A stretch of DNA of 64,000 bases from NCBI RefSeq assembly GCF_008017535.1, contig NZ_VRUA01000004.1, positions 62,001 to 126,000 of the forward strand, given 5' to 3'. The first letter of the stretch is position 1; each line of letters begins with the position of its first letter. The DNA comes from Ottowia flava (GTDB taxonomy: Bacteria; Pseudomonadota; Gammaproteobacteria; Burkholderiales; Burkholderiaceae_C). Below are positions 3,099 through 59,724 of this stretch, piece by piece. The position numbers were made by a program, and so were the translations under genes. The notes under the pieces are model-generated. The model did no database searches. It was not told where the DNA came from and saw nothing but the letters and a program-made list of their open reading frames with translations.

Positions 3099-4631
<1,533 letters not shown>

Positions 4632-4722
4632 GGCGGCGAGCGTAGCCGAAGGCGCCGCGCGCGCCAATCGGGCCGCGCAGCCCACGCGCGGGTGCCATGC
4701 CCGTCGCTTAGACTGCGGCGCC

Positions 4723-14298: not shown

Positions 14299-15363
14299 AT
14301 GCGCACCTTCACCACGAGCGACTTCGACTTCGCTCTGCCGCCCGAGCTCATCGCCCAGCACCCCGCCGCCGAACGCAGCGCCTCGCGCCTGCTTGATGGC
14401 AGCGGCCCCACACCCGTCGACCGCGTGTTCCGCGAACTGCCCACGCTGATGCGCGCGGGTGATCTGCTGGTCTTCAACGACACCCAGGTGGTGAAAGCCC
14501 GTCTCTTTGGAGAAAAGGCCACCGGCGGCAAGCTCGAACTGCTGATCGAGCGCGTGCTGCCCGACGGCACCGTGGCCGCGCACATGAAGGTCAGCAAAAA
14601 ACCGCCGGTGGGCGCACTGCTGCACATGGACGGTGGCGCCACCGCCGAACTGCTCGGCCGCTGGCCCGACGCGCAGGGCCCGCTGTTCCACCTGCGCCTG
14701 TCGCAGGACGCCTACCAGCTCATGGCGGCGCACGGCCACATGCCGCTGCCGCCCTACATCGAACGCAACCAGGCGCACGCCGACCCCGACGCGGCCGAGG
14801 ATGCCGAGCGCTACCAGACGGTTTTCGCCAAAAACCCCGGCGCCGTCGCCGCCCCCACCGCGGCCCTGCATTTCGACGAAGCGGTGCTGGCCGCGCTCGA
14901 CGCGCGCGGCGTGCAGCGCGCCGCCGTCACCCTGCACGTCGGCGCAGGCACCTTCCAGCCCGTGAAGAGCGACCACATCGCCGACCACGTGATGCACCGC
15001 GAGCGCTACCACGTGCCGCCCGCCACGCAGCAGGCCATCGCCGACTGCCGCGCGCGCGGCGGCCGCGTGGTGGCCGTAGGCACGACCAGCGTGCGCACGC
15101 TGGAAAGCTGGGCCCAGCGTGGCGAGCCCAGCGGCGACACCGGCATCTTCATCACGCCCGGCTACGACTGGCAGGTGGTGGATGCGCTGATCACCAACTT
15201 CCACCTGCCGCGCAGCACGCTGATGATGCTGGTCAGCGCTTTCTCGGGCTACGACCACATCATGGCGCTGTACCGCCACGCCATCGCCGAGCGCTACCGC
15301 TTCTTCAGCTACGGCGACGCGATGTGGCTGGTGCGCCAGAGCGCGCCGTCGCCTACCGCCTGA
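14299..15363 (+). CDS. queA: S-adenosylmethionine:tRNA ribosyltransferase-isomerase
   Basis: Queuosine synthesis: transfers and isomerises the ribosyl group of SAM to make epoxyqueuosine in tRNA. The 354 residues show the QueA hallmarks [89 protein letters not shown] and [20 protein letters not shown]. The start at 14299 ([11 protein letters not shown]) is the family start. It diverges from recG. A second queuosine gene, tgt, lies at 24476, so the pathway is split in this window. Confidence 0.97.
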
Positions 15364-15364
15364 G

Positions 15365-15421
15365 TTACAAGCCATTTAGGCCTGTAAGCCGCGCGCAGCA
15401 AGCGCGGGCAGCTATTCTTTT
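15365..15421 (-). repeat. Dispersed repeat, downstream of queA (first of a pair)
   Basis: Read on the minus strand this is AATAGCTGCCCGCGCTTGCT, then GCGCGCGGCTTACAGGCC and TAAATGGCTTGTAAC. This is the GCGC..GGAGGCC subtype of the dispersed element. It begins right after the queA stop (TGA at 15361-15363) and is followed by a second similar copy. Confidence 0.75.
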
Positions 15422-15477
15422 AGAGACCGCAACGCGGTGTACTGGTGCGCCAAGGCGACCCGTCGCACAGCCCCTGA

Positions 15478-15535
15478 ATTTCAAGCCTTCTAGGCCTCCA
15501 AGCCGCGTGCAGCAAGCGCGACGAGCTATTCTTTC
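15478..15535 (-). repeat. Dispersed repeat, second copy downstream of queA
   Basis: On the minus strand it reads GAATAGCTCGTCGCGCTTGC, then TGCACGCGGCTTGGAGGCC and TAGAAGGCTTGAAAT. It closely resembles the copy at 15365-15421 about 55 bases away, so the two form a tandem, same-orientation pair between queA and arfB. A local duplication is likely. Confidence 0.8.
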
Positions 15536-15559
15536 AGGAGGAATGGCAGCCTGCGATCT

Positions 15560-15958
15560 TCAATCGTCCACCCGCCGCCGCAGCGCCTTCACTTGCGAGC
15601 GCTGGGCCTTGCCTTCCAGTCGCCGCTGCTTTGAGCCGTAGGTCGGCTTGGTCGGGCGGCGGATTTCGGGCACCTGCGCCGCCTCATCCACGATGGCCTG
15701 CAGGCGCTCCAGCGCCAGGGCGCGGTTCTGCTCCTGCGTGCGGGCGGACTGCGCCTTGATCAACAGCACGCCTTCCTTGGTCACGCGGCGCCCAGGCAGC
15801 GCCAGCAGGCGCTCCTTCACCGCCGCGGGCAGCGACGAGGCCTGGATGTCGAAGCGCAGGTGCACCGCCGTCGACACCTTGTTGACGTTCTGCCCGCCCG
15901 GCCCCTGCGCCCGCACGGCCGTCCATTCGACCTCGCCTTCCTTCACCTGGCACGCCAC
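15560..15958 (-). CDS. arfB: Peptidyl-tRNA hydrolase / ribosome rescue factor ArfB
   Basis: Release-factor-like protein that hydrolyses peptidyl-tRNA on stalled ribosomes. The 132 residues carry the catalytic GGQ in AQGPGGQNVNKVSTAVHLRF (GGQ at 21-23) and the long basic C-terminal tail (PTKPTYGSKQRRLEGKAQRS, then KALRRRVDD) that enters the mRNA channel in the family. The start is GTG at 15958: the only in-frame codons upstream lead directly into the TAG that ends the preceding gene (15968-15970), so nothing longer is possible. It is probably translationally coupled to that gene, nine bases away. Confidence 0.9.
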   Translation of the reverse strand: MACQVKEGEVEWTAVRAQGPGGQNVNKVSTAVHLRFDIQASSLPAAVKERLLALPGRRVTKEGVLLIKAQSARTQEQNRALALERLQAIVDEAAQVPEIRRPTKPTYGSKQRRLEGKAQRSQVKALRRRVDD

Positions 15959-15967
15959 GCGCCACCC

Positions 15968-16729
15968 CTAGAAGCGCTCGCCCATCGGCAGGTAACGCCA
16001 CTGCCCCACCGGCAGCCCCGCCATCGGCACGCGGCCCAGGCGGATGCGCCGCAGCGCCTGCAGTTGCAGCCCCACCTGCGCGCACATCCACTCCACACGC
16101 TCGGGCGCGATGCCCTTCATGGCCAAGCGCAGCCGCGTTTCGCTCTGCCAGCTCACGCGCGCAGGCGGCAGCGGCCGACCGGCCCAGACCAGGCCGTGAC
16201 CCAGGCGCGCCAAGCCGCCAGGAGCCATGCCGTCCCTACCCTGCACTTCGGCGATCAGTTCCTGTTCGACAAACGCCGCGTCTTCCGTCAGCTTGCGCAC
16301 CACCCCCGGCGCCTGGCTGAACACGCACAGACCGCTGGCCGGTGTGGGCAGCGGCATCAGCGCCTGCAACCCGCGCAGGTGCGCCGTGCTCAAGCGAATG
16401 CCCGACGTGTCACCCGACCAGTGCGCCGCTTCGGTCAGCTGATCCAGCGCGGCTTGGGTCGACACCCCCGCGGGTTTGTGCAGCAGCAGCGTGGCAGGCA
16501 GCACCGGCTGCAAACGCGTCGGCAGAGGCGCCTGCCCATCCACCTCGACACTCTGACCGGGCGCCACGCGCTCCTGCGGCGTGCGCACGCACACCCCATC
16601 CACCCGCACCCAGCCTTCGGCGATGTACTGCTCGGCCTGGCGCCGCGAGCAGGTCAGCAGCGCGGCGACGGCCTTGGCCAGACGCTGGCCTTCGGGTTCG
16701 CTGGGTGATGTGCCTGCGGCGGCGGTCAC
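15968..16729 (-). CDS. RsuA/RluB-type pseudouridine synthase homologue lacking catalytic Asp
   Basis: A 253-residue protein with an N-terminal S4 RNA-binding domain (about 15-65: RLAKAVAALLTCSRRQAEQY) and a pseudouridine-synthase fold (LLLHKPAGVS at 81-90; C-terminal RLGRVPMAGLPVGQWRYLPM). The catalytic motif normally reads G-R-L-D-x-x-T-x-G-L; here it reads MPLPTPASGLCVF (125-137), with Pro128 in place of the Asp. The paralogue at 58906-59724 keeps GRLDIDSTGLLVL. It is therefore probably not a pseudouridine synthase but an RNA-binding relic or repurposed protein. The GTG start at 16729 overlaps the stop of the small upstream gene (GTGA), and arfB follows. Confidence 0.8.
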   Translation of the reverse strand: MTAAAGTSPSEPEGQRLAKAVAALLTCSRRQAEQYIAEGWVRVDGVCVRTPQERVAPGQSVEVDGQAPLPTRLQPVLPATLLLHKPAGVSTQAALDQLTEAAHWSGDTSGIRLSTAHLRGLQALMPLPTPASGLCVFSQAPGVVRKLTEDAAFVEQELIAEVQGRDGMAPGGLARLGHGLVWAGRPLPPARVSWQSETRLRLAMKGIAPERVEWMCAQVGLQLQALRRIRLGRVPMAGLPVGQWRYLPMGERF

Positions 16730-16881
16730 AGCGAGCGCGCCTTGACGGCGGCCGCGGCCTGCGCAATCAAATCGCGCCCGACTAGCGCTGGCGCACGAGC
16801 GGCGATCTGGTTGGGAGGAATTTTCAGGAGGTTGAGGCGCTGGCGCTTGTCTTGGGTGGCGGGAGCCGATGGAGATGTCAT
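16726..16881 (-). CDS. Small conserved-looking protein of unknown function
   Basis: A 51-residue ORF (MTSPSAPATQDKRQRLNLLK, then IPPNQIAARAPALVGRDLIAQ, then a short Ala/Lys-rich tail) whose TGA stop overlaps the GTG start of the pseudouridine-synthase homologue. This suggests a three-gene coupled unit ending in arfB. The ATG at 16881 is used; a TTG nine codons upstream would give 60 residues. The coupling and the non-random composition support a real gene. I recognise no domain. Confidence 0.55.
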   Translation of the reverse strand: MTSPSAPATQDKRQRLNLLKIPPNQIAARAPALVGRDLIAQAAAAVKARSL

Positions 16882-16984
16882 GGGGTAGATGTTACGCAGC
16901 GAAGCCAATCAAGTCTTGCTGATCGTGTGGTGCACACATCCGTGGTCGAAAAACGCAAAGAAGCGGTCACTTAGATCTGAAATC

Positions 16985-17478: not shown

Positions 17479-19389
17479 ATGCCAAGTACCCCGCACCCCG
17501 CCCACTTCACCCCCCGCTGGCTTCTACGTTTGGCCTGGTGCCTGTGGGCAATGGCCCTGCTGTTTGCGGGCGCCGCACACGCGCAGGCCGGCCTCTGGAC
17601 CGCCAGCGGCGACCTGGCGACGGCGCGCACCCGCCACACGGCCACGCTGCTGCCCAATGGCAAGGTGCTGGTCGCAGGGGGGGCCAACGCCAGCGGAGAC
17701 CTCGTCCAGGCCGAACTGTACGACCCCGCCACCGGCACCTGGGCCCCAGCAGCCGGCATGCTGGCTGCGCGCAGCCAGCACACGGCCACGCTGCTGCCCA
17801 ATGGCAAGGTACTCATGGCAGGGGGCTTTGGCGCCGGCACCCATGCCGAGTTGTACGATCCGGATGCCGACACCTGGACCGCCACCGGTAGCCTGACTCA
17901 AGTGCGCGTGGCCCATACCGCCACGCTGCTAGCCAATGGCAGCGTGCTGGTCGCAGGGGGCATCTCTAGCGCCAGCAGCAGCGCAGAAATCTACAACCCC
18001 GCCACCGGTACCTGGACGGCTACTGGCAGCCTGGGCCAGGGGCGCTTCTTTCACGCAGCCACGCTGCTGCCGGGCGGCAAGGTGCTGGTTGCCGGGGGTA
18101 CGCCCAATGGCGACCTCGGCCTCATCAGCGCCGAGCTATACGACCCCGTCAACGGCACATGGGCTACCACCGGCGCACTGGCCACGGGGCGTTACGGTCC
18201 CACGGCCACGCTGCTGCTCAATGGCAAGGTGCTCCTTCTCGCAGGCAACGGGGCGGGGGCAACCTTCCTCAATGCCGCTGAACTGTACGACCCCGCCACC
18301 GGCACCTGGGAAGGCACCAGCGCGTTGCCCACCCCACGCTCATTCCACACCGCGAGCCTGCTACCTGGCGGCAAAGTACTGGTCGCATCGGGGCAGGTCG
18401 ACCTTGTCCCGCCCACCAGCAGTGCGGTGGTGTACGACCCTGCCATCGGCACCTGGGCTGCCACCGGCGCGCTGGCCGAGGCGCGCAGCGAACATACGGC
18501 CACCGTGCTGCAAAGCGGCATGGTGCTTGCCGTCGGGGGGAACAACGGCGCCCCATACCTTGCCAGCACCGAGTTGTACCACCCCACCGCTCAGCCCACC
18601 CTGGCGCTGGCCGCCAGCGCCAACCCCAGCGTCCTGGGCGCCAGCGTCACCCTGACCGCCACGATGGGCAGCGCCAGCAGCCCCACGGGCACGGTGGCTT
18701 TCAGCGCGGACGGCGTGCCGTTGGCCTGCGCCGCCCCGCCCGCCATCAGTGGCAGCACGGCCACCTGCACCGTCAGCGGCCTGCTGGTGGGCGCGCACAC
18801 CCTCACCGCCAGCTACGCGGGCGACGCCAGCAACTCTTCCGCCACGAGCTTCCCGCTGGCACACACCGTGGACAAGGCCAGTCTGGGCACAGGGCCCACG
18901 GGGGTCACCGTCAGCGGCCCGCCCGGCTGCGTGGTTGGCAGCCTAGCACTGGCCGACGCCACCCCTGCCGACAACTTGCCCGCTAACGCCACCGCCCCGC
19001 TGGGCGTGCTGCGCTTCACCGCCACGGGCTGCGCGGGCGCCACGCTCACGATCACGGTGGACTACCCTGCAGGCAGCCTGACGGGCCTCACGCCCTACAA
19101 ATTCGGCCCGGCCAGCGCAGGCGCCACGCCGAATTGGTTTGCCCACGGCGGCAAGACCGGCGACAGCGTGACCTACACCGTGACCGATAACGGCACGGGC
19201 GACAACCAGAGCGCGACCAGTGGCCCCAACGTGGGTGTGATCGAAGACCCCCACGCGATGCTGCTGTTGGCGCCGGCACCCGGCGGCGCGCAGGCGATTC
19301 CCACGCTCTCCGAGTGGGGGCTGGCGCTGCTGGCGGCAGTGCTGGGGATGCTGGGCGCGCGGGGCTGGCGCAGGCCGCTATCCCTTTGA
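17479..19389 (+). CDS. Exported Kelch-repeat protein with IPTL-CTERM sorting signal
   Basis: A 636-residue surface or secreted protein. Signal peptide: LLRLAWCLWAMALLFAGAAH, then AQA (about 14-36). Seven Kelch-like blades follow (about 45-373), each of the form R..HTATLLPNGKVLVAGG ... AELYDPATGTW. Next comes an Ig-like domain (about 374-475), a 'choice-of-anchor U'-type domain (about 480-600) and the C-terminal AIPTLSEWGLALLAAVLGML, then an Arg-rich end, which is the IPTL-CTERM tripartite signal (motif, TM helix, basic cluster). By family the tail is processed by an exosortase-like enzyme; none is in the window. Its role, perhaps carbohydrate binding or adhesion, is not determined. Confidence 0.85.
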   Translation: MPSTPHPAHFTPRWLLRLAWCLWAMALLFAGAAHAQAGLWTASGDLATARTRHTATLLPNGKVLVAGGANASGDLVQAELYDPATGTWAPAAGMLAARSQHTATLLPNGKVLMAGGFGAGTHAELYDPDADTWTATGSLTQVRVAHTATLLANGSVLVAGGISSASSSAEIYNPATGTWTATGSLGQGRFFHAATLLPGGKVLVAGGTPNGDLGLISAELYDPVNGTWATTGALATGRYGPTATLLLNGKVLLLAGNGAGATFLNAAELYDPATGTWEGTSALPTPRSFHTASLLPGGKVLVASGQVDLVPPTSSAVVYDPAIGTWAATGALAEARSEHTATVLQSGMVLAVGGNNGAPYLASTELYHPTAQPTLALAASANPSVLGASVTLTATMGSASSPTGTVAFSADGVPLACAAPPAISGSTATCTVSGLLVGAHTLTASYAGDASNSSATSFPLAHTVDKASLGTGPTGVTVSGPPGCVVGSLALADATPADNLPANATAPLGVLRFTATGCAGATLTITVDYPAGSLTGLTPYKFGPASAGATPNWFAHGGKTGDSVTYTVTDNGTGDNQSATSGPNVGVIEDPHAMLLLAPAPGGAQAIPTLSEWGLALLAAVLGMLGARGWRRPLSL

Positions 19390-58905: not shown

Positions 58906-59724
58906 TTAAAACCGCTCGCCCGGCCCCAGGTAGCGCCACTGCCCCACTGGCAGGTGGCCCAACACCACGCCGCCGATGCGCACGCGTTTCAGGCCGGTCA
59001 CCTTCAGGCCCACGGCTTCGCACATGCGGCGGATCTGGCGCTTCTTGCCTTCTTTCAGGATGAAGCGCAGCTGCTCGGGGTTTTGCCAGTCGACGCGCGC
59101 GGGCAGCAGCGGCTTGCCGTCCAGGCTCAGGCCGTGGCGCAGACGCGCCAGCTGCGCGGGCGGGAAGGCGCGCTGCACGTCCACGGCGACGTCGCCAAAG
59201 GCCACGCGCACCAGGTATTCCTTTTCGACGTCGGAGTCTTCGCCGATCAAATGGCGCGCCACGCGGCCGTCCTGCGTCAGCACCAGGAGGCCGGTCGAAT
59301 CGATGTCCAGCCGGCCGGCCGGTGCCAGCCCACGCAGTTGCGACGGCGCAAAGCGCGTGCGCGATGCGTCGTCACGCCAATGGTTGCGGCCCTGCACCAG
59401 CACGACGGCGGGCTCGTAGCCGTCTTCGGCCTGGCCGCTGACGTAGCCGACGGGCTTGTGCAGCAGGATGGTCACGCGCTGCGCTTGCGATTCGTCGGCG
59501 CGGCGGTCCACCGTCACGCGGTCTTGCGGGCCGACCTTGGTGCCCATGGGCGCGACCTCGCCATTGACCTTGACCCAGCCGCGCTCGATCCATTCGTCCG
59601 CCTCGCGGCGCGAGCACAGGCCCATGTCGGCCAGGCGCTTGTTCAGGCGGACAGTGCCCGCGTCGCCGCCGGACGGTCGGGCGTCGGGCGGCGCGGCGCG
59701 GCGAAAACGGGGAGCATCGGACAT
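58906..59724 (-). CDS. RNA pseudouridine synthase (RsuA/RluB/RluF group)
   Basis: A 272-residue enzyme that isomerises uridine to pseudouridine in rRNA. S4 domain: RLNKRLADMGLCSRREADEW (about 26-45). Catalytic motif GRLDIDSTGLLVLTQDGRVA with Asp140, then KEGKKRQIRRMCEAVGLKVT and RIGGVVLGHLPVGQWRYLGP. This is the intact counterpart of the Asp-less homologue at 15968-16729; both end in PVGQWRYL. The target site is not deducible. It begins 186 bases upstream of htpG on the same strand. Confidence 0.92.
   Translation of the reverse strand: MSDAPRFRRAAPPDARPSGGDAGTVRLNKRLADMGLCSRREADEWIERGWVKVNGEVAPMGTKVGPQDRVTVDRRADESQAQRVTILLHKPVGYVSGQAEDGYEPAVVLVQGRNHWRDDASRTRFAPSQLRGLAPAGRLDIDSTGLLVLTQDGRVARHLIGEDSDVEKEYLVRVAFGDVAVDVQRAFPPAQLARLRHGLSLDGKPLLPARVDWQNPEQLRFILKEGKKRQIRRMCEAVGLKVTGLKRVRIGGVVLGHLPVGQWRYLGPGERF

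Follow-up and report, generated by a model that had tools for sequence, protein, structure and literature searches.

The window, a 64,000-nucleotide stretch of Ottowia flava DNA, carries on its minus strand an RluF-like gene whose product combines an S4 RNA-binding domain with a pseudouridine-synthase domain that has lost its active-site residues (Table 1). The open reading frame is unbroken and encodes the motif stretch ALMPLPTPASGL. A second RluF-like gene in the same window encodes the motif stretch PAGRLDIDSTGL, and the two proteins are 39% identical in a pairwise alignment. An earlier note, written from the letters of the DNA, had reported PLPTPASGL in the first protein in place of the RLD motif of active enzymes, RLDIDSTGL in the paralogue, and a gene that was otherwise intact. 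All three observations were correct: Pro occupies the position of the catalytic Asp, the paralogue has the motif as described, and the frame runs without interruption from its start codon.

Table 1. Features of the locus and of the comparison gene, with positions numbered from the first letter of the window.
Feature	Positions	Strand	Basis or remark
RluF-like pseudoenzyme gene (S4 + dead pseudouridine-synthase domain)	15968..16729	-	GTG start, 253 aa
S4 RNA-binding domain, residues 15-59	16553..16687	-	PF01479, 37.2 bits vs cut-off 22.8
Pro126 codon, replaces base-flipping Arg (RluB Arg108)	16352..16354	-	Alignments; Arg in 0/128 clade rows
Pro128 codon, replaces catalytic Asp (RluB Asp110)	16346..16348	-	Alignments
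Leu158 codon, replaces active-site Tyr (RluB Tyr140)	16256..16258	-	Alignments, residue counts
Glu210 codon, replaces motif III Arg (RluB Arg194)	16100..16102	-	Alignments, residue counts
RluF-like paralogue, catalytic residues retained (comparison)	58906..59724	-	PF01479 + PF00849 matches
arfB, downstream neighbour	15560..15958	-	NF006718, 189.8 bits vs cut-off 100
Small ORF; residues 11-51 (16756-16878) most likely dbpA N-terminal relic	16726..16908	-	

Residue equivalences were taken from pairwise and PDB alignments of the window protein to RluF and RluB. In these alignments the earlier observation proves understated, as not only the catalytic Asp has given way to another residue but also the base-flipping Arg, the active-site Tyr and the motif III Arg. 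RluB retains 0.6% of its activity as R108A and about 3% as Y140F, and TruA, TruB, RluA and RsuA become inactive when the Asp is mutated (PMC3919597). Pro128 is not a sequencing slip, since Pro stands at this site in 22 of the 23 close orthologues aligned, counting that of the window, and Ala in the other one (L054). At the level of profile models, the S4 model PF01479 matched the window protein and the synthase model PF00849 was absent at E values up to 1 in a Pfam scan. Among seven other members of the clade described below, PF00849 reached 14-18 bits in five, against a cut-off of 26.8; the other two gave no listed match at E up to 0.1. TIGR00093 (32.4 bits vs cut-off 109.3) and NF007784 (43.2 bits vs cut-off 318) also scored the window protein below threshold, the latter threshold being missed by the active-looking paralogue as well (129.9 bits). 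The host genome (4.1 Mb, 53 contigs) has eight PF00849 matches, and the pseudoenzyme gene is not among them.

Structure prediction suggests that the S4 and synthase fold is kept, although a fold by itself shows no function. An AF2 model built from 22 sequences had a mean pLDDT of 91.6 and a pTM of 0.78, and its top Foldseek matches were RsuA (1ksk, E 1.9e-16) and RluF (3dh3, E 7.7e-16), with RluB (4lgt) close behind. Over the whole chain the model aligned to the solved folds with a TM of about 0.5 and an rmsd near 10-12; its catalytic part aligned to the catalytic domain of RluF (2gml) with a Z of 18.2 and an rmsd of 2.5 over 158 residues (VIA-align).

A scan of named genomes yielded orthologues at 21 loci, 59-71% identical to the window protein, from Hylemonella, Extensimonas, Ottowia, Curvibacter, Ramlibacter and records whose names go no further than Comamonadaceae or Burkholderiales. 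In the genus of the window, an orthologue-level match was present in 3 of the 29 genomes, several of which are incomplete. Wider searches covered 397 genomes of the family and 399 of the order; a subset of the matches was read, amounting to 98 loci in the window's family and 30 outside it. The order search gave 46 matches of at least 287 bits, in 45 genomes from nine other families of the order; 28 of these were read, together with two lower-scoring clade members. We give no exact prevalence because the profile fails to separate the clade from RluF near 270-278 bits. When 232 genomes of the class were searched with a P. aeruginosa member of the clade, 21 matched at E 1e-35 or better, of which 14 carry the clade outside the order, 3 belong to the window's family and 4 have RluF matches. 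The P. aeruginosa protein itself (WP_003082237.1) keeps the Asp and the Tyr, has Ala for the base-flipping Arg and lacks motif III; its annotation, on a plasmid record, reads 'rRNA pseudouridine synthase'. The plasmid record is 847 kb long and typed as conjugative; in the locus read from it (L194, 1-8693) the clade member stands at 3986-4696. The same record carries hcuABC and roeA, which we take to be chromosomal in appearance.

Residues were counted in 128 clade rows from Burkholderiales and compared with 31 RluF rows, after removal of 19 loci whose genomes were already represented (an RluF locus among them) and of two RluF rows, L028 and L037, that are broken or partial. All 31 RluF rows have each of the four residues; of the 128 clade rows, none has the base-flipping Arg, 3 have the catalytic Asp, 23 the active-site Tyr and 1 the motif III Arg. 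In 15 further clade rows from other orders the counts were Arg 0, Asp 4, Tyr 14 and motif III Arg 0, with Asp or Glu at the catalytic site in 13, so that the base-flipping Arg is found in none of the 143 rows. The constant losses in the clade are therefore the base-flipping Arg and the motif III Arg. At the Asp site the 128 rows have Pro (61), Glu (49), Ala (7), Asp (3), Gly (3), Gln (2), Val (2) or His (1). The earlier note had proposed that Pro conserved across orthologues would mark a repurposed family; the alignment upholds the family and not the conserved Pro, and Pro was rejected as a clade signature, as the site varies and Pro, Glu and Ala alternate there. The same note had named orthologues with a restored Asp as evidence against its reading. 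Such orthologues do occur, in the numbers just given for Burkholderiales and for other orders, so this objection holds in part; the Arg is found in none of them.

The members from other orders bear on whether the protein could still be a pseudouridine synthase that uses an unusual active site or another acidic residue. Their Asp or Glu and their Tyr, and the public record that labels one of them an rRNA pseudouridine synthase, speak for such activity, but the window protein has lost all four residues, the two Arg residues are absent or nearly so in Burkholderiales, and the RluB mutant matching the Arg loss has 0.6% activity (PMC3919597). We consider continued synthase activity improbable. Loss of catalysis is firm for the window protein; it is not proved clade-wide, because some clade rows keep the Asp or the Tyr.

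Fifteen positions are at least 85% conserved in the clade with a residue other than the one most RluF rows have (K205, G206 and P209 are examples), which suggests new constraint and not decay. Eleven positions of the S4 domain are at least 85% conserved in both the clade and RluF. The median net charge of the clade was -1 in the S4 domain, vs +2 in RluF, and +6 in the catalytic domain, vs +9. With this lower positive charge and the basic motif III gone, the old cleft may no longer bind RNA.

We next consider the descent of the clade and how it has been maintained. In a quick IQ-TREE tree of 81 rows, the 63 clade rows were monophyletic (SH-aLRT 100) on a stem of 0.94 changes per column, and in a second quick tree, with the motif columns removed and the 15 other-order rows added, 78 clade rows grouped together (SH-aLRT 100). 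RluF did not form one side of a branch in the 81-row tree, where two changes were needed and L141 fell outside the rest; this tree fits both a clade sister to RluF and a clade nested within it. Fitch parsimony on one quick tree placed Glu or Pro at the Asp site at the base of the clade, which is only a hint of the ancestral residue. For pairs of 80-99.5% identity, dN/dS by NG86 had a median of 0.22 and a maximum of 0.44 in the clade (62 pairs) and a median of 0.23 in RluF (50 pairs); given the identity filter and the sequences shared between pairs, these values are comparable between the two groups and are not absolute. As the clade median matches that of RluF so closely, the gene is not decaying. 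A recent, decaying pseudogene would account for the lost catalytic residues and for the lack of an orthologue-level match in 26 of the 29 genomes from the genus of the window, some of which are incomplete; set against intact reading frames in many genera, the low dN/dS, the long shared stem and the clade-specific conserved positions, it is a very remote explanation. Judged by tree and substitution rates, this is an old, monophyletic and selectively maintained clade paralogous to RluF. The proposal of the earlier note that the gene belongs to a repurposed, catalytically dead family is thus supported, in Comamonadaceae and beyond, by purifying selection and a retained S4 domain.

We then asked how the clade relates to RluF within single genomes, using 80 genomes whose best match in the family search was at clade level, not all of which were read residue by residue. 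NF007784 matched at 116 bits or more in 37 of the 80, and these were counted as having RluF by score alone. A second search, with the protein P0002, covered 40 of the remaining 43 and recovered RluF in 34 (4 whole, 29 in two pieces and 1 as an N-terminal piece). RluF thus stands alongside a clade member in 71 of the 77 genomes checked, and the P0002 search did not find it at E 1e-25 in 6. As a rule, then, the clade protein is an addition to RluF and no replacement for it. Replacement had been suggested by the family-model search and was dropped once the direct P0002 search found RluF in most genomes. Many RluF genes of the window's family (L224-L248) have an insert near P0002 residues 177-178, and RluF looks absent in model searches because this insert splits the match.

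To describe the genomic context, neighbouring genes were called with a codon-score gene caller. In the window, arfB starts 9 bases past the stop codon of the pseudoenzyme gene, and the small ORF on the other side overlaps its GTG start by 4 bases. The earlier note had taken both as coupled genes. The arrangement is as it described, but the small ORF lies upstream of the orthologue in 1 of 98 loci, the window itself, and upstream of no other orthologue examined, and it is likely a gene fragment. Its residues 11-51 match residues 13-53 of the DbpA encoded at L045 (18 of 41 identical, E 5e-7 in a single comparison), and the reverse search of DbpA against the window stretch gave a weak match (E 0.04). 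The gene upstream at L045 is dbpA by NF008744 (713 bits vs 524), and an intact dbpA lies directly upstream of the orthologue in 3 of 98 loci (L039, L040 and L045); at L045 and in two Hylemonella gracilis genomes it ends 31-49 bases ahead of the aligned orthologue start. By this comparison the small ORF is most likely an N-terminal relic of dbpA, the remains of a dbpA-pseudoenzyme pair, and the apparent coupling through the 4-base overlap is explained in this way. The host genome has an intact DbpA-like ORF, 466 aa long, at another place.

The adjacency to arfB underlies the idea of the earlier note that the protein may act in ribosome rescue jointly with ArfB. The same-strand adjacency recurs in L011, L043, L046, L049 and L069; even so, these and the window make up only 6 of 98 loci, all within one 14-row subclade of the tree, and arfB was otherwise seen 1-2 kb away in 2 loci and on the opposite strand in 1. 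In the three relatives with dbpA upstream, arfB was not found. Rescue with ArfB therefore lacks comparative support, with arfB adjacent in 6 loci and the small gene in one, and we regard it as quite improbable. Around these genes in the window, positions 15350-15537 (+) hold two direct repeat copies of 74 nt, 80% alike at a spacing of 114, between arfB and a gene that is presumably queA; the core pattern of the repeat occurs at only those two places in the window. Positions 17479-19389 (+) encode a Kelch-repeat protein with bacterial Ig-like, choice-of-anchor U and IPTL-CTERM sorting domains.

Across the family, the commonest upstream neighbour encodes a NUDIX-metallo-beta-lactamase-winged-helix fusion (NUDIX-MBL; PF00293, PF00753 and PF17778). 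Of the 98 loci, 50 have it on the same strand within 300 bp, frequently only a few bases from the orthologue (L055-L058 and L070-L149, among others), and 4 have it further upstream. Six of the 98 have a gene that we take to be ychF at a distance of 300 bp or less. The main rival explanation starts from the NUDIX-MBL association: the synthase scaffold would have become a protein- or ligand-binding module, with NUDIX-MBL as the first candidate partner and RNA binding of minor importance. Loss of the basic residues of motif III, the lower positive charge and the new conserved positions fit such a module as well. However, none of the 30 loci read outside the family showed a NUDIX-MBL gene (for 14, the upstream sequence covered was about 1.5 kb or less), the host genome has it on a different contig (C23), and the eleven S4 positions are conserved in the clade just as in RluF. 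On balance a protein-partner role strikes us as rather unlikely. No constant neighbour was found outside the family, where the commonest gene, VF530 by its name in the P. aeruginosa record, occurs in 8 of 45 loci.

At roughly even confidence, we favour a reading in which the window protein, a catalytically dead RluF paralogue, would function as a non-catalytic RNA-binding pseudoenzyme, perhaps in ribosome assembly. We read it as a pseudoenzyme because four active-site residues are lost while the clade is maintained and the S4 domain and fold are kept. The presence of RluF in most of the same genomes, and the dbpA gene or its likely relic upstream, also speak for this reading. Such a protein would act without catalysis, docking on structured RNA through the S4 domain and what remains of the synthase scaffold. 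Its likeliest target would be the 23S rRNA of assembling large subunits (pre-50S), the site of RluF action, where it might serve as a folding factor, an assembly factor or a placeholder. There is precedent in E. coli: in a strain without 10 modification enzymes, inactive RlmB(E198A) and RlmL(N309A) support growth or 50S assembly (PMC11194073). Re-introducing RluB and RluF into this strain, however, did not significantly change growth or the ribosome profile, which weakens the analogy (PMC11194073). The fall in positive charge, the absence of motif III and the lack of a neighbour constant across the clade also count against an RNA-binding pseudoenzyme.

The RNA helicase DbpA has its target near the peptidyl-transferase centre. 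A more specific and tentative version of the pseudoenzyme reading, possible but doubtful in our view, is that an ancient beta- and gammaproteobacterial branch, concealed by its annotation as rRNA pseudouridine synthase, gave up catalysis early, first losing the base-flipping Arg and motif III and later the Asp, and became a dedicated non-catalytic 50S assembly factor at the peptidyl-transferase hairpins, the site of action of both RluF and DbpA.

Dead members of enzyme families are already known, and what the present clade contributes is a pseudoenzyme branch of the RsuA/RluF family. Among the papers listed by word searches of the open-licence PMC literature, no description of a dead RluF branch was found, and one may exist elsewhere. 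Because at least one copy, that of P. aeruginosa, bears the annotation rRNA pseudouridine synthase, the number of modification enzymes ascribed to genomes may be too high by one. A dead branch that is natural and maintained by selection also separates RNA binding from catalysis within the RsuA/RluF family. It makes an old question directly testable in environmental Comamonadaceae, namely whether enzymes that modify rRNA are important for the modification they make or for the protein itself.

Among known systems, the closest is the RsuA/RluB/RluE and RluF family itself, which has the same S4 and synthase architecture and, by AF2 and Foldseek (1ksk, 3dh3, 4lgt), the same predicted fold. RluF is the 23S rRNA pseudouridine-2604 synthase, represented in the window by the RluF-like paralogue; unlike these enzymes, the window protein has four residues replaced and does not reach the PF00849 cut-off. 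RlmB and RlmKL of E. coli are similar in that they are rRNA-modification proteins that aid growth or 50S assembly without catalysis (PMC11194073). They differ in being active methyltransferases with engineered dead mutants, whereas the window protein is dead naturally and its assembly role is only proposed. DbpA is an unrelated protein, linked to the clade by gene order alone, through the three orthologues it directly precedes among 98 loci and the likely relic in the window.
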